This document shows positions 47,792 to 55,020 of a DNA stretch of 64,000 bases, in pieces. The stretch is from Spirochaetaceae bacterium (GTDB lineage: Bacteria > Spirochaetota > Spirochaetia > DSM-27196 > PXBQ01), in the NCBI GenBank assembly GCA_007695285.1, contig REEC01000120.1:1-64000 (forward strand), in the 5' to 3' direction. Numbering within the stretch: the first letter of the stretch is position 1; every line of letters starts with the position of its first letter. A program made the position numbers and the translations under genes. Under the pieces are notes generated by a model, which had not been told where the DNA came from, did not search any database, and saw only the letters and a program-made list of their open reading frames with translations.

Positions 47792-48550
47792 TCACTCGGT
47801 GCTGTTCACGAGCGACGCGGCGAACGATCGTACGGCGTCGTATACCGAGGTGCCTGTCTCGGCCGCGCGCGTTATCGTCGAGACAAAAGCGGTTCCGACG
47901 ACAACCGCATCGACGTGTTCCGCGACCGCCGCGACCTGTTCGGGAGTTCGGATTCCGAATCCGCCGTACACTCGAACACCCCACGACGAGATCGAACGGA
48001 GAAACTCGAGCGTCTCGGTGTCGATCGCGGTTTTCGCCCCGGTGATACCGCGGCGCAACGCCACGTAAACCGACGACGGTTTACGCGCGCGCGTCGCGTC
48101 TAACCGGTTTCCGGGTGAGCCCGACACGAGAACCGGGACGATATCGAGCGCGTTTGCGGCTCCGGCCGCGTACACTCCTTCGTCGTAATCGACCGGCAAG
48201 TCCGGGACGATGAGCCCGCTCGCACCGGCTGCTTTCACGGCAGCGACAAAAGACTCGACCCCGGGCGCGAACACCATCCCGGCATACGTCATTATGTACA
48301 CCGGCACGCGCGAGGATCGCGTGATCTCTCGGACAAACTCAAACCCGTCGCGCGTACGGAACCCGTTCCGCAGCACCGAGCTGCAGGCGGCCTCGATAAC
48401 GGCTCCGTCGGCCGACGGATCCGAGTACGGAAACTGCACCTCCAGGTACGCAACGCCCGCGTCGATCAGTGCGCGCGCGGCATCCAACGATCGCTCTTTG
48501 TCGGGGTAGTACGGAACGATATGCGCCATGATGCGTGCTTTTTCGCTCAT
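47792..48550 (-). CDS. trpA: Tryptophan synthase alpha chain, 252 aa
   Basis: Cleaves indole-3-glycerol phosphate to indole, passed to TrpB. The catalytic Glu and Asp are in YLEVQFPYSDPSADG, a variant of the usual LELGIPFSDPLADG, so it belongs to a divergent subgroup. GLIVPDLPVDYDEG and VYGGFGIRTPEQV are conserved. The start overlaps the trpB stop by four bases. Confidence 0.95.
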   Translation of the reverse strand: MSEKARIMAHIVPYYPDKERSLDAARALIDAGVAYLEVQFPYSDPSADGAVIEAACSSVLRNGFRTRDGFEFVREITRSSRVPVYIMTYAGMVFAPGVESFVAAVKAAGASGLIVPDLPVDYDEGVYAAGAANALDIVPVLVSGSPGNRLDATRARKPSSVYVALRRGITGAKTAIDTETLEFLRSISSWGVRVYGGFGIRTPEQVAAVAEHVDAVVVGTAFVSTITRAAETGTSVYDAVRSFAASLVNSTE

Positions 48551-49824
48551 CGATTCTCCTCAGCCGCGGCAAGGTCGGCATCGACGCGCGACAAATCGTG
48601 TTCGATCCCGGAGACCTCCGAGAGCAAAAACTCGCGCCACCGTTCGGGCTCGAGCGCGCGCGCGGTGATGAAGAGATCCTTATCTCCCCTGCCCGACATA
48701 TTCACGATAATCGCCGTTTCCGGCGAGTAGTTCGGCGCGCGTTTGATCGCCTCTGCGGCCGCGTGAGCCGACTCGAGCGCGAACACGATGCCCTCGTTTC
48801 GGGCAAAGAATCTCAGCGCATCGAGCGATTCACGGTCGGTGGCGCGCGTGAACTCCACGCGATGGGAGGCTCCGAGCGATGCGAGCTGCGGCCCAATTCC
48901 CGGGTAATCGAGCCCCGCGGAGATCGAGTGCGTGTCCTCGACCTGTCCGTCGTTATCGACGAGGAACAGGCTCTTGTAACCGTGCACGATTCCCGGACGG
49001 CCGGCACCGTTCATCCTCGCCGCGTGAGCCCCCGTTCCGGTACCGGTACCACCGGCTTCGACGCCGATCAACGCCGGGCTCGGGAGATCGAGGTACGGAT
49101 AGAAAAACCCTATCGCGTTCGATCCGCCGCCGACGCACGCGATCAACGCCACCACATCGAGACCGCGATGTGTCGTCTGCATCAGGGTTTCGCGCCCGAT
49201 TACCGACTGGAACTCCCGAACCATGTCAGGGTACGGAGACGGCCCAAGCGCCGATCCAATGATGTAGTGCGTATCGGGAAAACTCGCGGCCCAGTCGCGC
49301 AGAGCCTCGTTCACCGCGTCCTTGAGCGTGCGCGCTCCGGTCGTGACCGGCACGACCTCGGCGCCGAACAGTTCCATCCAGAACACGTTCGGCCTCTGCC
49401 GCGCGATGTCGATCTCACCCATGTAGATGCGGCATTTCAGGCCGAGCTTAGCGCAGACGGCCGCGGTTGCGACACCGTGTTGGCCCGCGCCGGTCTCCGC
49501 AATGATCCGGGTCTTCCCCATCCGACGCGCGAGTAGCGCCTGCCCGACCGCGTTATTGATCTTGTGCGCGCCCGTATTCGCGAGCCCTTCGAGCTTGATG
49601 TATATCTGCGCACCGCCGAGTGCGCGCGACGCATTGCTCGCGTGAAGAAGAGGCGTCGGACGTCCGACAAAAGTACTCGCGATCTCGTCGAACTCCGCCG
49701 CGAACGCCGGTTCGCGCATCGAGGTTTTGAACGCGTTCTCGAGTTCGTCCAGCGCGGGGCGCAGAACTTCGGCGACGTAACGGCCGCCGAACTCGCCAAA
49801 GTAGTCGTTATACAATTCCTGCAT
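48547..49824 (-). CDS. trpB: Tryptophan synthase beta chain, 425 aa
   Basis: PLP enzyme condensing indole with serine. The PLP lysine is in GAHKINNAVGQALLA, the glycine loop in GGGSNAIGFFYPY, and the N-terminal YFGEFGGRYV is typical of TrpB1. The start is ATG 49824, preceded by CAAGGAGG and overlapping the end of trpCF by 17 bases. A longer frame to 49902 lies inside trpCF and has no ribosome site. The C-terminal ~25 residues (LLSEVSGIEHDLSRVDADLA) extend past the usual end and are acidic. Confidence 0.96.
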   Translation of the reverse strand: MQELYNDYFGEFGGRYVAEVLRPALDELENAFKTSMREPAFAAEFDEIASTFVGRPTPLLHASNASRALGGAQIYIKLEGLANTGAHKINNAVGQALLARRMGKTRIIAETGAGQHGVATAAVCAKLGLKCRIYMGEIDIARQRPNVFWMELFGAEVVPVTTGARTLKDAVNEALRDWAASFPDTHYIIGSALGPSPYPDMVREFQSVIGRETLMQTTHRGLDVVALIACVGGGSNAIGFFYPYLDLPSPALIGVEAGGTGTGTGAHAARMNGAGRPGIVHGYKSLFLVDNDGQVEDTHSISAGLDYPGIGPQLASLGASHRVEFTRATDRESLDALRFFARNEGIVFALESAHAAAEAIKRAPNYSPETAIIVNMSGRGDKDLFITARALEPERWREFLLSEVSGIEHDLSRVDADLAAAEENR

Positions 49825-51259
49825 TCTCAACCTCCTTGAAGAACACCGCGAGCGCCTCGCGGCTCTTCCTACCCGGTGTTTCTTCGAGGCTGCTCGATGC
49901 ATCGATTAACTCGGGCGAAAAATCCCGGATGATCCGGCGCACGTTGTGCGGTCCGATTCCACCCGCGAGCCACAACGGCTGCTGTTCGGCGGCGAGGCTC
50001 ACCAGCCCGGGATCGATCTCTTTCCCGGTGCCACCGTGTCGCGACGGGTCGTACGCGTCGACGAGGACGCGTGGCGACCGGTACGTCCCAATCGTCACGA
50101 CGTCGGAGTCCGACCGAATCCTGACCGCCTTGTAGTAGGGAAACGCAAACGAGAAACACTCGTCGGCCGCCTCGTCGCCGTGAAACTGCACCGCGTCGAT
50201 CAACCCCTCGGATAGGGCGGTGCCGACGTCCGGATCGAGCTCGGGGTGCTCCGCGTCGATAACCGTTACCCCGATCCTGAGCACCGGCAGATCGCGGATC
50301 GTCCGCAGAACGGCGAGATCGGCCTTGCGAGGTGACCGCGCGAACACAAAACCGAGCGCGTCGGCGCCGAGTTCACACGCGTACTCGGCATCATCGCGAT
50401 GCGTGATTCCACAAATCTTGATAATCGGCCGCGTGCTCGCGAGGTACCGCCGGCGGATTTCGCCGATACGCGGCCAGAACCCGCGATCTCGCGTCGCGCC
50501 CGTACCGGTCAGCCCGGCGATGATCGCGGGGATACGCTCCGGCGCGGCCACGACAGCCTCCCCGACGAGCACCCCGTCAAATCCCGACGTCTTCGCGTAC
50601 GCCGCGTGTTCCTCCGTAAAGATGCCGGACTCGAACACGACTTCACACGGCCAATCGATCGACGGCCGCAGCACGAGGGGACCGAGCAAATCGATCCGGA
50701 ACGTCGTGAGGTCCCGGCTGTTGATCCCAACCAACTCCGGCGCGATCACCCGCGCCTTCTCGACGTCGGCCTCGTCGTGAAGCTCGACGAGCGCGCGCAT
50801 CCCGAGCCCGGTCGCGCGCGCGTGCATCGTCGCGAGCTGATCGGCGGTAAGGCACGACGCGATCAGCAACACCGCGTCGGCACCCGCGCGGTACGACACC
50901 TCGATGTCCTGTTCGTCGAGCAGGAAGTCTTTTCTCAAGACCGAGAGGTTCGGGTGCGCGCTTTTCACCGCGATCAGGTCGTCGAGTGATCCGTCGAAAT
51001 GCTCGGACTCGGTCAAAACCGAGATCGACCGCGCGCCGTACCTCGCGTACGTTCCCGCGACCGCCGCCGCGTCGTGGACCGGAGCGAGATCGCCGCGAGA
51101 CGGGCTGCGCCTCTTGATCTCGCACACGACAAACGGATCGCTGCCGAACGGCACGAGTGGAACCATGCGCCGATCCGGAACGACACACCCGCCGGTATAC
51201 CCCCGGACCGCGATCATCGCCCGACGCGCCGCGATTATTTCGTCGCGTATGTTCGTCAT
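49808..51259 (-). CDS. trpCF: Fused indole-glycerol-phosphate synthase / PRA isomerase, 483 aa
   Basis: Bifunctional third and fourth steps of Trp synthesis. The TrpC domain (~1-255) has CEIKRRSPSRG (46-56), SVLTESEHFDGS and LRKDFLLDEQDIEVSYRAGA. The TrpF domain (~278-483) starts IIKICGITHRDDAEYA, with catalytic-type Cys283, and has FHGDEAADE and GGIGPHNVRRII. The joint (~255-278) is short. This is the same fusion order as in Escherichia coli. It overlaps trpGD by four bases and trpB by 17. Confidence 0.96.
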   Translation of the reverse strand: MTNIRDEIIAARRAMIAVRGYTGGCVVPDRRMVPLVPFGSDPFVVCEIKRRSPSRGDLAPVHDAAAVAGTYARYGARSISVLTESEHFDGSLDDLIAVKSAHPNLSVLRKDFLLDEQDIEVSYRAGADAVLLIASCLTADQLATMHARATGLGMRALVELHDEADVEKARVIAPELVGINSRDLTTFRIDLLGPLVLRPSIDWPCEVVFESGIFTEEHAAYAKTSGFDGVLVGEAVVAAPERIPAIIAGLTGTGATRDRGFWPRIGEIRRRYLASTRPIIKICGITHRDDAEYACELGADALGFVFARSPRKADLAVLRTIRDLPVLRIGVTVIDAEHPELDPDVGTALSEGLIDAVQFHGDEAADECFSFAFPYYKAVRIRSDSDVVTIGTYRSPRVLVDAYDPSRHGGTGKEIDPGLVSLAAEQQPLWLAGGIGPHNVRRIIRDFSPELIDASSSLEETPGRKSREALAVFFKEVENAGIV

Positions 51260-52893
51260 GCCGACTCCCCGTCGGCGTCAGCGTCGGCTTCGAGATCCGG
51301 TTTCTGCTTCGCGAGTGCCTTGATCCGCCCGACGTACGCCTTGACGCGACCGTCGCGGATAGCCGCCGAGGCGAGAGCGAAACCCGCGGCGATGTCGTCG
51401 ACCGTGCCGTACACCGCGAGTGCGGCGCCGGCGTTCAAAGCGACCGCGTCTCGGATCGCAGGCGGCCCCTCACCGTCAAGAATGTCTCGGGCGGTCGCTG
51501 CGTTCTCCGACGCGTCACCTCCGATCAGCTCTCGGATCTCATACGGCGTGATACCGACCGATTCCGGGTTGAACGTCTGCTCGGTAACGGTGCCGTCGGG
51601 ATCGAGCCGGACGATCATCGTCGGTCCACAGACGGAGATCTCATCGGTCCCGTCCGCGCCGTGCACGACCATCGCGCGCTTGACACCGAGCCGGTGAGCC
51701 GCTTCGGCAACCGGACGGCAGTACTGGGCCGCAAAAACTCCGATCAGTTGATACTCAGCAGCCGCGGGGTTCGAGAGGGGGCCGAGCAGATTCATGATAG
51801 TCTTGATGCCGAGGTCGCGCCGCGCGGGAGCGGCGTGTTTCATCGCGCCGTGGTACACGGGCGCAAACAGAAACGCGAACCCGGCACGAGCGAGTAGGCT
51901 TTCGGCTTCCGCGGGCGTGAGGTCGGTCGGAATTCCGAGCGAACCGAAAAACTCCGCGCTGCCGCTGCGCGAACTCACGGCCTTGTTTCCGTGTTTCGCG
52001 ACGATCGCTCCACACGCCGCGGCGGTGAGCGCCGAAAGCGACGAGATGTTGAACGTACCGATACCGTCGCCGCCGGTTCCGCACGTATCGAGAACCGGCT
52101 TCCGCGCGCGGATCGGAACGCGTTTCTTCCTGAGCACCGCGGCGCAACCGGCTATTTCGTCCGCGGTGATTCCTTTTGCGTTCAGCGCCACGAGAAATCC
52201 CGCGATCTGAGCGACCGCGAGGTTTCCGTCGGTGAGTTCTTCCATGAAACCGATCGCCTCTTCGTACGCCATATCGTTACCGGCGATCACATGCGCGAGC
52301 AGCTGTCTCGGCACGAACGGCTCGCGGCGGTACTGCAGGAAGTTACCAAGCAGCTTCTTCCCGGCTTCGCTCGCGATCGACTCGGGGTGAAACTGCACGC
52401 CCTCGAGCACCGCGGTCGTGTGACGAAGCCCCATGATCGCTCCGTCGCGACTTCTGGCGGTGACCTCGAGCTCGGCGGGAACCGTATCGGGGTCGACGAC
52501 GAGCGAATGGTACCGCGTGAACCGCGCCGGTGAGTCGATCGAACGGAATAACCCTCGTCCGTCGAGCTCGATCTCCTCGACCTTCCCGTGCACGATCCGC
52601 CCGGCGCCGACGATCGACGCGCCGAACGCGTATCCGATCGCTTGATGACCGAGGCAGACGCCGAGAATCGGAATCTTCCCGGTAAACTCCTTGATCACGG
52701 CTACCGAAATGCCCGCGTCCTCCGGCCGCCCGGGTCCGGGCGAGATGATGATACGTTCGGGAGCCATCAGACGGATCTCGTCGACGGTGATCCGGTCGTT
52801 CCGCACCACTTTCACCTCATCCGCCGTCAGTTCGCGCACGTACTGGTAGAGGTTGTGCGTGAACGAATCGTAGTTATCGATGATGAGGACCAT
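51256..52893 (-). CDS. trpGD: Fused anthranilate synthase glutaminase / anthranilate PRTase, 545 aa
   Basis: TrpG domain (~1-190): class I glutaminase with C80 in LGVCLGHQAIGYAFG and H169/E171 in VQFHPES; it supplies ammonia to TrpE. TrpD domain (~197-530): phosphoribosyl transfer with DTCGTGGDG (269-277), KHGNKAVSSRSGSAEF and NPAAAEYQLIGVF. The C-terminal tail is acidic (EADADADGES). The start is two bases downstream of the trpE stop, so translation is coupled. Confidence 0.96.
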   Translation of the reverse strand: MVLIIDNYDSFTHNLYQYVRELTADEVKVVRNDRITVDEIRLMAPERIIISPGPGRPEDAGISVAVIKEFTGKIPILGVCLGHQAIGYAFGASIVGAGRIVHGKVEEIELDGRGLFRSIDSPARFTRYHSLVVDPDTVPAELEVTARSRDGAIMGLRHTTAVLEGVQFHPESIASEAGKKLLGNFLQYRREPFVPRQLLAHVIAGNDMAYEEAIGFMEELTDGNLAVAQIAGFLVALNAKGITADEIAGCAAVLRKKRVPIRARKPVLDTCGTGGDGIGTFNISSLSALTAAACGAIVAKHGNKAVSSRSGSAEFFGSLGIPTDLTPAEAESLLARAGFAFLFAPVYHGAMKHAAPARRDLGIKTIMNLLGPLSNPAAAEYQLIGVFAAQYCRPVAEAAHRLGVKRAMVVHGADGTDEISVCGPTMIVRLDPDGTVTEQTFNPESVGITPYEIRELIGGDASENAATARDILDGEGPPAIRDAVALNAGAALAVYGTVDDIAAGFALASAAIRDGRVKAYVGRIKALAKQKPDLEADADADGESA

Positions 52894-52895
52894 TG

Positions 52896-54290
52896 TTACA
52901 CCTCCAGACCGACTGCGCGCGCGAGCGCGGCGAGCTTCTCTCCGGTCTCTTCGTACTCGCGCTCGGGCGTCGAGTCAAACACGATTCCCGCTCCGGCCTG
53001 AAGAACCATGTGTCCGTCCTTCTTGATCGCGCTCCGGATCGTGATACACGTGTCGAGATGCCCGCCGGGCTCGAAGTACCCGACGCATCCCGCGTAAAAT
53101 CGCCTCGGATACGGCTCGAGCCGGTCGATCACCTCGATCGCGCGGATCTTCGGCGCCCCCGAGACGGTTCCGGCCGGAAAAGTCGCTCTGAGCGCGCCGA
53201 TGCCGGTTTTGCCCTCCGCCAACGTGCCGCGAGCCTCCGACACGATGTGCATCACGCGCGAGTATCGCTCGACCTCCATGTACTCGGTCACGCGCACCGT
53301 TCCGGGCTCGCACACGCGCCCGATATCGTTCCGCGCAAGGTCGACGAGCATCAGGTGCTCGGCGCACTCCTTGGGGTCGGCGAGCAGTTCGGCCTCGAGC
53401 GCCTTGTCCTCCTCGTCGGTCTCGCCGCGCCGTCGCGTGCCGGCGATCGGCCGTATCAGCACCTCGCGGCCTTTCACGGTGACGTGGACCTCGGGTGACG
53501 CGCCGAAGAACTGGTACTCGCCGAAATCGAGAAAGAACAGGTACGGCGCGGGATTGGTCGTCCGTAACCGCCGGTACGCCTCGATCGCGGGCATGTCGGT
53601 CTTGATCATGAGCCGCCGCGACAGAACACCCTGCAGCAGATTCCCCGCGACGATCTCGTCCCGGACCTTTTCGACCGCCGCGAGGTACTCTCCGCGCCGC
53701 GCGTCGGGCTCGACCGCGGTGCTCGTGTACTCGGTCTGCTCGGCCTGAAGATAGTTAAAGTCGAGGTCGTTGATCCGCCGTTCGGCGTCGTCGACGTGCG
53801 CGACGAGATCGACCGCGTGCTCGGCGTAGTTCAGCCCGATCACGTACAGAAGATCGGTGTAGTGGTCGAACACGACGAAGACGTGCCCAAAAATGAACGC
53901 CGCGTCCGGCAGGCCCAATGGGTCGTGGCGCTCCGTGAACGAGATCGTGTCGCACATACGCGCGAACTCGTACGAGAGATACCCGATGCCGCCCGCCGGG
54001 AACGGAAAGTTCTGTTGCGGCTCGTGATGCTGATTCGCAAAGTACAGCAGGACGTCGAGGATGTCGCGCGCGCGGCTTTTTATTTTCCTGCGCGCACCGT
54101 CGGCGATGTACCAGATATCGCGTCCGCGCTGTTCGACACGAAACGCCTCTTCGATCATGAGCAACGAGTATCTCTCTCGTCCTTTCTGAAACGATGCGGA
54201 CTCGAGCATGGCGCGCGCGCCGAGCTTCTTCGCAAGCCCGTACGGCGTGAACCGTTCCCCCGGCAGTATCCGAATGATAACCTCGGACAT
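52896..54290 (-). CDS. trpE: Anthranilate synthase component I, 464 aa
   Basis: Converts chorismate to anthranilate with TrpG ammonia. The Trp feedback motif LLES-x10-S appears as MLES (28-31) with S42, so Trp inhibition is likely. Catalytic segments are IRPIAGTRRRG, ELLADPKECAEHLMLVDLARND and TFPAGTVSGAPKIRAIE. The start is ATG 54290 with AAGGAGATC upstream. The frame extends to 54350 but that part is the second attenuator terminator. It is first gene of trpE-GD-CF-B-A, preceded by a leader peptide and two terminators. Confidence 0.96.
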   Translation of the reverse strand: MSEVIIRILPGERFTPYGLAKKLGARAMLESASFQKGRERYSLLMIEEAFRVEQRGRDIWYIADGARRKIKSRARDILDVLLYFANQHHEPQQNFPFPAGGIGYLSYEFARMCDTISFTERHDPLGLPDAAFIFGHVFVVFDHYTDLLYVIGLNYAEHAVDLVAHVDDAERRINDLDFNYLQAEQTEYTSTAVEPDARRGEYLAAVEKVRDEIVAGNLLQGVLSRRLMIKTDMPAIEAYRRLRTTNPAPYLFFLDFGEYQFFGASPEVHVTVKGREVLIRPIAGTRRRGETDEEDKALEAELLADPKECAEHLMLVDLARNDIGRVCEPGTVRVTEYMEVERYSRVMHIVSEARGTLAEGKTGIGALRATFPAGTVSGAPKIRAIEVIDRLEPYPRRFYAGCVGYFEPGGHLDTCITIRSAIKKDGHMVLQAGAGIVFDSTPEREYEETGEKLAALARAVGLEV

Positions 54291-54313
54291 TCGATCTCCT
54301 TCCACATCAGTAT

Positions 54314-54348
54314 AAAAAAAATGCCGCGTTCCGTGACACGGACGCGGC
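54314..54348 (-). terminator. trp attenuator, second terminator
   Basis: Minus strand: GCCGCGT, CCGT, GTC loop, ACGG, one bulged A, ACGCGGC (54348-54323), then A and an eight-T run (54321-54314). It is a strong intrinsic terminator 23 bases before the trpE start codon. It must be conditional, since trpE would otherwise be silenced. Confidence 0.85.
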
Positions 54349-54350
54349 AC

Positions 54351-54398
54351 AAAAAAAGCCGCGTTTCCCCGGTCTTTGGACCGACCAGGACCTGCGGC
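54351..54398 (-). terminator. trp attenuator, first terminator
   Basis: Minus strand: outer helix GCCGC (54398-54394) with GCGGC (54362-54358) and inner helix CGGTC/GACCG (54383-54370) with a CAAA loop. A seven-T run (54357-54351) follows. It mutually excludes the 2:3 antiterminator helix. Confidence 0.75.
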
Positions 54399-54413
54399 TC
54401 GGATAAAGTCCGG

Positions 54414-54479
54414 TCAGGCCCTGCTCGCAGGGCCCCACCAGAAACCGTTTTGTACGTTCAAAGTCGTTTCGCGTCGCAT
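54414..54479 (-). CDS. trpL: trp operon leader peptide with tandem Trp codons, 21 aa
   Basis: ATG 54479 to TGA 54414, beginning MRRETTLNVQ and containing NGFWWGPAS: codons 14 and 15 (54440-54435) are both TGG. It plays the role of enterobacterial TrpL, whose stalled ribosome at consecutive Trp codons switches the leader structure. No Shine-Dalgarno precedes it; the -10 box ends nine bases before the ATG, so the leader mRNA is leaderless or nearly so. The stop falls right after the first hairpin, as expected for attenuation. Confidence 0.85.
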   Translation of the reverse strand: MRRETTLNVQNGFWWGPASRA

Positions 54480-54488
54480 ATCGCGAAA

Positions 54489-54517
54489 ACTTTACTGTAT
54501 TTGTCCCCGATGGTCAA
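54489..54517 (-). promoter_or_regulatory. trp operon promoter
   Basis: Minus strand TTGACC (54517-54512), exactly 17 bases, TAAAGT (54494-54489). The transcript should begin within a few bases of the trpL ATG. No TrpR-like palindrome is evident over the promoter. Confidence 0.75.
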
Positions 54518-54597
54518 GAAATATCCGCGATGTGTCCGCGGTGCCGGCTCCGGCCCCGGAAGTCAGGGCCAAAACCGTCCGCGGACCGGCGTCTCCA

Positions 54598-55020
54598 CTA
54601 AAACGGAACGGCCTCCGCTACGCGTTCTTCGGTCTCGGCCTCGATTGCCTCGGCCGGTTCGGACGACTCGAGCTCGGGCTGTTTTCTCGGTTGTGGGCGG
54701 AACTCGACGTGCTCACCGACGATTTTCACGCGGGAGTGATTCTTTCCCTCCCCGTCGGTCCACCGATCCTGCCGCAACCGCCCGACGATCCGGACACCGC
54801 GACCCTTCTTCAAGTACTCGGCGCAGTTCTCCGCGACGCGCGCCCACACTTCGACGTCGAAAAACGACACCTCCTTCTGGAGCTCTTCCTCCTGCCCGGC
54901 ACGAAAGTACCTGTTCGACGCGACCGAGAAGTTACACACCGGCGTCCCTTTCGGCGTCTGCGTAAACACGGGGTCTCGCGTGAGATTCCCTTCCACGAGA
55001 ATCGAGTTAAGGCTGTTCAT
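54598..55020 (-). CDS. ssb: Single-stranded DNA-binding protein, 140 aa
   Basis: OB-fold (~1-105): MNSLNSILVEGNLTRDP, FSVASNRYFRAGQEEELQKE, FFDVEVWARVAENCAEYLKKG, and VRIVGRLRQDRW. A short linker leads to an acidic tail ending AVPF, the partner-docking tip of SSB proteins. GAGGTG lies six bases before ATG 55020. The tail is shorter than in well-studied SSBs, so the total length is at the lower end. It is monocistronic by layout, with trpL's promoter 80 bases downstream. Confidence 0.95.
   Translation of the reverse strand: MNSLNSILVEGNLTRDPVFTQTPKGTPVCNFSVASNRYFRAGQEEELQKEVSFFDVEVWARVAENCAEYLKKGRGVRIVGRLRQDRWTDGEGKNHSRVKIVGEHVEFRPQPRKQPELESSEPAEAIEAETEERVAEAVPF

Follow-up and report, generated by a model that had tools for sequence, protein, structure and literature searches.

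A probable ribosome-dependent trp attenuator in a spirochaete and its apparent exchange with TrpR control within the phylum

The trp operon of a Spirochaetaceae bacterium (GTDB lineage Bacteria; Spirochaetota; Spirochaetia; DSM-27196; PXBQ01) is, in our reading, very likely controlled by a ribosome-dependent transcription attenuator that precedes trpE and uses a pair of tryptophan codons as its sensor. The element lies in positions 1-64,000 of contig REEC01000120.1 (assembly GCA_007695285.1), and this whole stretch is referred to here as the window; "the order" denotes the window genome's own order. A first-pass annotation of the DNA had described the element as having the logic of the enteric trp leader. 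That logic recurs ahead of trpE in the order and in other lineages, with tandem Trp codons and mutually exclusive protector, antiterminator and terminator helices, and the element is far from solitary: it is the rule in the order and is also found in further spirochaete lineages. Across spirochaete trpE loci, the leader and a candidate operator for the repressor TrpR stand in complementary spread.

Architecture of the leader and its predicted folds

The leader region is located on the minus strand between an ssb-like gene, which ends at 54598, and the trpE start codon (ATG 54290), which is preceded by the ribosome-binding site AAGGAG at 54301-54296. The remaining features are listed in Table 1. 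As first annotated, a TTGACC-17-TAAAGT promoter stands ahead of trpE; it is the sole promoter-like site in 54250-54650, an interval with no other sigma-70-like site (shuffles predict 0.1). Relatives have a like TTGAC...-10 layout a few nt 5' of the leader start. The 21-codon reading frame with TGG at codons 14 and 15 can be read directly from the sequence, and both the GC hairpin enclosing the stop codon and the intrinsic terminator are borne out by sequence and folding. The protector hairpin has the core GGCCCTG/CAGGGCC (54434-54428/54423-54417), which GGT/ACC lengthens to 54439-54412, and the Trp codons are themselves paired within it.

Table 1. Features of the trp leader and operon in the window
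Feature	Coordinates	Strand	Details
Promoter	54489..54517	-	-35 TTGACC 54517-54512, 17-nt spacer, -10 TAAAGT 54494-54489; read from sequence
Leader ORF (trpL)	54414..54479	-	ATG 54479, 21 codons and TGA 54416-54414; peptide MRRETTLNVQNGFWWGPASRA
Tandem Trp codons 14-15 (predicted sensor)	54435..54440	-	TGG TGG; read from sequence; WW/WWW kept in relatives
Protector hairpin 1:2	54412..54439	-	54439-54428 with 54423-54412; pair probability 1.0 without ribosome
Antiterminator 2:3	54386..54423	-	CAGGGCCTG 54423-54415 with CAGGTCCTG 54394-54386; folding
Intrinsic terminator T1 (3:4)	54351..54400	-	GAGCCGC...GCGGC, -25.9 kcal/mol, U7
Second terminator T2	54314..54350	-	-20.8 kcal/mol, U8; 5' of trpE
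trpE (anthranilate synthase component I)	52896..54290	-	Pfam
trpGD fusion (glutamine amidotransferase and phosphoribosyltransferase)	51256..52893	-	Pfam
trpCF fusion	49808..51259	-	Pfam
trpB	48547..49827	-	Pfam
trpA (last trp gene of the operon)	47792..48550	-	Pfam

The leader ATG lies 9 nt past the -10 box. As this spacing has no room for a Shine-Dalgarno site, the window leader mRNA is probably leaderless. Most order loci with a callable promoter have a similar distance of 6-12 nt, transcription starts here being taken from the promoter, and in two loci the automatic promoter call rested on a weak -10 match. The distance is larger, 23-37 nt, in lineages f25/f43 and f23, in some cases with a clear GGAG or AGGAGG.

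The helices 1:2, 2:3 and 3:4 are mutually exclusive because they share strands, as in the enteric trp leader. Segment 2 (54423-54415) provides both the 5' strand of the antiterminator and a 3' strand of the protector, and it is overlapped by the stop codon. The antiterminator had initially been placed at 54415-54408 with 54391-54383; that helix can form (-10.5 kcal/mol) but barely overlaps or competes with the protector, and it is weaker than the 9-bp helix given in Table 1, which does compete with it (the fold of 54423-54366 has -28.1 kcal/mol).

To model the switch, the leader was folded with the ribosome footprint set unpairable, and the probability of the terminator, P(T1), was read out. 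When the first Trp codon occupied the A site, P(T1) was 0.00-0.03 for footprints of +9 to +13 nt and 0.14 at 15 nt; when the second one did, a larger footprint had a weaker effect, P(T1) reaching 0.54 at 15 nt. A ribosome at the stop codon gave 0.90-0.95 (the count for this mask began at 54418, an error of 2 nt, with the same outcome at footprints of 6 to 15), and with the ribosome absent the protector formed and P(T1) was 0.95. A ribosome mask at the Trp codons, a comparison of the kind suggested in the first-pass annotation, drops T1 from 0.95 to 0.00, and in these computations the position of the ribosome decides which of the three exclusive helices forms.

The folding switch alone is modest evidence, as shuffling 54434-54401 also produced a complete switch, in 23 of 1000 dinucleotide and 2 of 500 base shuffles. 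Equilibrium folding recovered a switch in just 2 of 38 scored loci. The E. coli trp leader switch is kinetic, and the equilibrium method is therefore blind to it: the genuine E. coli trpL, its sequence verified against E. coli genomes, gave P(T) of 0.95-0.96 in all states under the same method. That most relatives show no switch at equilibrium is consequently of little weight, and we discarded equilibrium folding as a general test, using it neither for nor against them.

Based on the computed folds, we propose the following sequence of events. Transcription would start at about 54482-54479, and a ribosome would begin on the leader ORF at once. When charged tRNA-Trp is scarce, the ribosome is expected to stall at the TGG pair and cover segment 1, which would leave segment 2 free to pair with 54394-54386, block T1 and let the polymerase continue to trpE. 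When tryptophan is plentiful, the ribosome would run on to the stop codon; since this codon lies within segment 2, the 3:4 helix could then fold and transcription would end. Should no ribosome load at all, 1:2 is predicted to form and T1 to fold as well. The attenuator would thus very probably turn the trp genes off at plentiful tryptophan.

The genes behind it form an intact trpE-GD-CF-B-A operon in a single same-strand run, confirmed by Pfam, and one further chorismate-binding protein is encoded elsewhere in the genome.

Conservation among spirochaetes and the second terminator

Of 393 spirochaete genomes, 213 gave a TrpE homologue, as did 39 of the 46 genomes of the order, where low-scoring matches represent other chorismate-binding proteins; the single other genome of the window's genus that was examined gave no trpE match. 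In two genomes (G361, locus L020; G396, locus L140) the trpE match is in two pieces in the assembly, with the break after the N-terminal part, which may reflect either an error in sequencing or decay of the gene.

A strict scan, which demanded a start codon, WW, a stop and a hairpin with T-run at the right distance, recovered the leader in 20 of 25 trpE loci of the order, the window included; the reverse strand gave no hit and shuffles a mean of 0.02. In the rest of the phylum it recovered 15 of 80 loci, again with none on the reverse strand. Four leader calls (L012, L169, L180 and L195) were dropped by eye as chance or unsure. Inspection raised the count in the order to 23 of 25 by adding L006 (with W-N-W), L138 (in which the long T-run is absent) and L140. 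The comparison with relatives proposed at first annotation therefore finds tandem Trp codons kept in 23 of 25 order loci. Relatives that retain trpE and have lost WW, named there as the refuting case, do exist, but within the order they are solely loci that have a TrpR-type operator instead: L114 and L139 show no leader by strict scan or inspection.

The leader peptides of the order carry motifs such as QWWWAV, SSWWWLG, NSGWWLR and NWWWAWSRSR, and those outside it NYWWWFWE, RFWWWFWQ, NNWWAWQL and TIWWWRARTFR. Between families WW or WWW is kept while the sequence from the Trp codons to the terminator differs. Two sister leaders differ by an in-frame 3-nt deletion; leader codon changes (10 synonymous, 25 non-synonymous) are too few to prove translation. 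In the order, a simple pattern search upstream of hisG and pheA gave no leaders rich in His or Phe.

Within families, pairing changes support their helices, although the few changes in few sequences do not prove them. The f4 and f25/f43 lineages retain almost all base pairs of the two rival helix sets, and the changes respect pairing. In f4 they comprise a double change from CG to UA at columns 53-67, within 3:4, and AU/GU at 10-24; in the f25/f43 clade, columns 13-24 vary as CG/UA/UG. This distant clade has the plain four-segment logic, and its segments 1 (TGGTTCTGG) and 3 (GGTTCTGG) are near copies, both complementary to segment 2. Family f4 is built as a six-segment chain, with 1:2, 3:4 and 5:6 against 2:3 and 4:5. 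Alternating helices of six segments, reaching from the WWW codons to the terminator, were seen at L005, L007, L131, L132 and L140. The enteric his leader likewise has six segments (A-F), and its alternating helix chain resembles that of f4; the window differs from it in having four segments plus T2 and in sensing Trp.

The window shares T2 with the f25/f43 clade (L014, L022, L023, L028), f21 and L160. A T2 directly behind the attenuator and partly complementary to T1 was noted in the window (54350-54314) and at L014, L022-L025, L028 and L160. T2 may serve as a second brake, acting as a leaky backup or restrained by 4:5 pairing while T1 is unmade. We consider it possible, though unlikely, that the attenuator works in two stages, the free 3' arm of T1 capturing the 5' arm of T2 (4:5) and thereby relaying antitermination. 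The window can form such a 4:5 helix (7 bp within 54366-54340, -13.0 kcal/mol), each of the four f25/f43 loci offers an 8-bp 4:5 helix, with a single double change from GC to UA at columns 95-105, and tandem terminators occur in several lineages besides the window. For the attenuator itself, T2 is predicted to be folded in every ribosome state (0.93), which leaves read-through past T1 unexplained at equilibrium. Against a relay, T2 outcompetes 4:5 at equilibrium in every state. The complementarity would also be automatic if T2 were a copy of T1, as the same GC arms would pair anyway, and T2 is absent from most of the order.

TrpR, its candidate operator and other explanations

In many spirochaete loci without the trp leader the trpE promoter carries the palindrome GTTTCTATnnATAGAAAC (L009, L015-L017, L019, L021, L026, L027, L031, L032, L114, L139, L141-L158 and others). 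We tie it to TrpR because most of the trpR loci examined have it immediately 5' of trpR, with trpB2 following downstream in ten of them, and regard it as a candidate TrpR operator; no description of a spirochaete TrpR operator was found in open full text. An operator was called at no more than 3 mismatches of 16 to the palindrome, and TrpR as a PF01371 family protein in the genome. By these definitions, a TrpR-family protein is encoded in the genomes of 51 of 52 operator loci versus 2 of 32 leader-only loci, while 11 loci have both elements and 21 have neither. The association of operator with TrpR has a Fisher p of 1e-10 uncorrected for relatedness, which is no fair probability because few independent pairs remain after correction for kinship (3.8 pairs in the expected direction and 0 opposite, p 0.125, too few independent pairs). 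On the TrpE tree, leader presence requires 4 changes and operator presence 7. Among 20 high-quality genomes of the order TrpR is found in 6 and absent from 14, and incomplete genomes may miss it.

Operator and tandem-Trp leader occur together at trpE, as in E. coli, at L011, L024, L025, L167, L192, L193, L194, L196 and L198. At L013 and L018, both of family f10, neither leader nor operator was recognised ahead of trpE, and neighbouring relatives have the operator.

This distribution bears on whether TrpR, as a DNA-binding repressor, might itself control the window's trpE, with the leader ORF and hairpins incidental. The window genome does encode a TrpR (94 aa, PF01371, E 9e-18), and many relatives have a TrpR-type operator at trpE. 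Yet no operator lies within 320 nt upstream of the window trpE, where the best site has 8 mismatches of 16. The perfect palindrome (GTTTCTATTTATAGAAAC) is found instead on contig C256:30000-34500 of the window genome (G000; L202, L295), followed by trpR and a trpB2-like tryptophan synthase beta gene (453 aa). This trpR-trpB2 pair is likely a self-regulated operon, and the same arrangement with the palindrome upstream recurs in other spirochaete lineages. Most leader-only relatives have no TrpR; the leader-only loci with TrpR belong to the window genome and to G420, which likewise has an operator at trpR (2 mismatches). Control of the window trpE by TrpR is accordingly very improbable.

Even less credit is due to the idea that T1 is operated by a ligand-binding RNA (a T-box or riboswitch) or a TRAP-like protein while the leader goes untranslated. 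Such systems also combine a leader with a terminator, but in a search of 18 trpE loci that included the window's, no Rfam family reached its gathering score: RF00513 (Trp_leader) stayed below that score, and T-box gave no covariance match. Retention of WW/WWW amid a Trp-codon-to-terminator sequence that varies by family also speaks against it. Rfam matches in the window to RcsR1, anti-hemB and Burkholderia sRNAs were far below threshold and were set aside as terminator look-alikes. Nor is it at all probable that two strong terminators in series merely shield trpE from transcription of the ssb-like gene on the same strand, with the WW ORF a product of chance, given that the promoter sits between that gene and T1 and that WW leaders occur in 20 of 25 order loci against 0.02 expected.

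The attenuator is the preferred account of the window. Across the phylum the two controls, repressor site and attenuator, seem to have been exchanged on a conserved operon. Whether the promoter carries the leader, the operator or both, E-GD-CF-B-A with the same fusions follows it (7 of 7 genomes examined), and the change is therefore confined to the control region. The gene order, like the two fusions, also matches E. coli (L296-L302, L303). This hint of a recent transfer from enterics finds no support: Trp proteins are just 28-52% identical between spirochaetes and E. coli, compared with 41-72% among spirochaetes, and so show no sign of one.

Relation to known attenuators and significance

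Among the closest counterparts is E. coli trpL (RF00513), which shares the tandem Trp codons, the 1:2 / 2:3 / 3:4 helices and the operon E-GD-CF-B-A; the window differs in being probably leaderless, in having T2 and in lacking a TrpR operator at the same promoter. The trp leader mRNA of Sinorhizobium meliloti (trpL/rnTrpL) begins at its ATG, i.e. is leaderless, and its operon is without transcription repression, but the gene it serves is trpE(G), and both peptide and RNA are active in trans as well (PMC7298713). TrpL1 of Streptomyces lividans (MFAHSTRNWWWTAHPAAH) is another leaderless ORF, from a different phylum; it contains consecutive Trp codons and, together with hairpins, precedes a monocistronic trpE (PMC8079986).

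The attenuator type is known, and what is new, as far as open literature shows, is its occurrence in spirochaetes. Leader-peptide attenuation is documented chiefly in Proteobacteria and Actinobacteria; Naville and Gautheret (2010) regarded leader peptide systems as unshown outside these two before their own Firmicutes case (PMC2965389). One paper pairs leader genes with Spirochaetales, its topic being leader-to-structural-gene distances in general (PMC4833913). We found no description of trp or leader-peptide attenuation in spirochaetes in open full text, in agreement with the initial remark that no such element had been described there; a search of that scope does not prove the remark or establish priority.

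The evolutionary setting is of more interest than the single element. We judge it somewhat probable that, in Spirochaetota, control of a conserved trp operon was swapped more than once between TrpR at GTTTCTATnnATAGAAAC and an attenuator (leaderless in one order), some genomes having both and some lineages relaying antitermination to a second terminator. The window genome would then be a relic, with TrpR and its operator only at trpR-trpB2 and the attenuator on trpE-GD-CF-B-A. For annotators, the set offers about 35 short genes and a candidate TrpR operator motif, and it probably extends leaderless leader peptides to a third phylum. Because the leaders replace a repressor that relatives still use on the same operon, the spirochaetes may provide a natural series for the move of an operon from DNA-level to RNA-level control.
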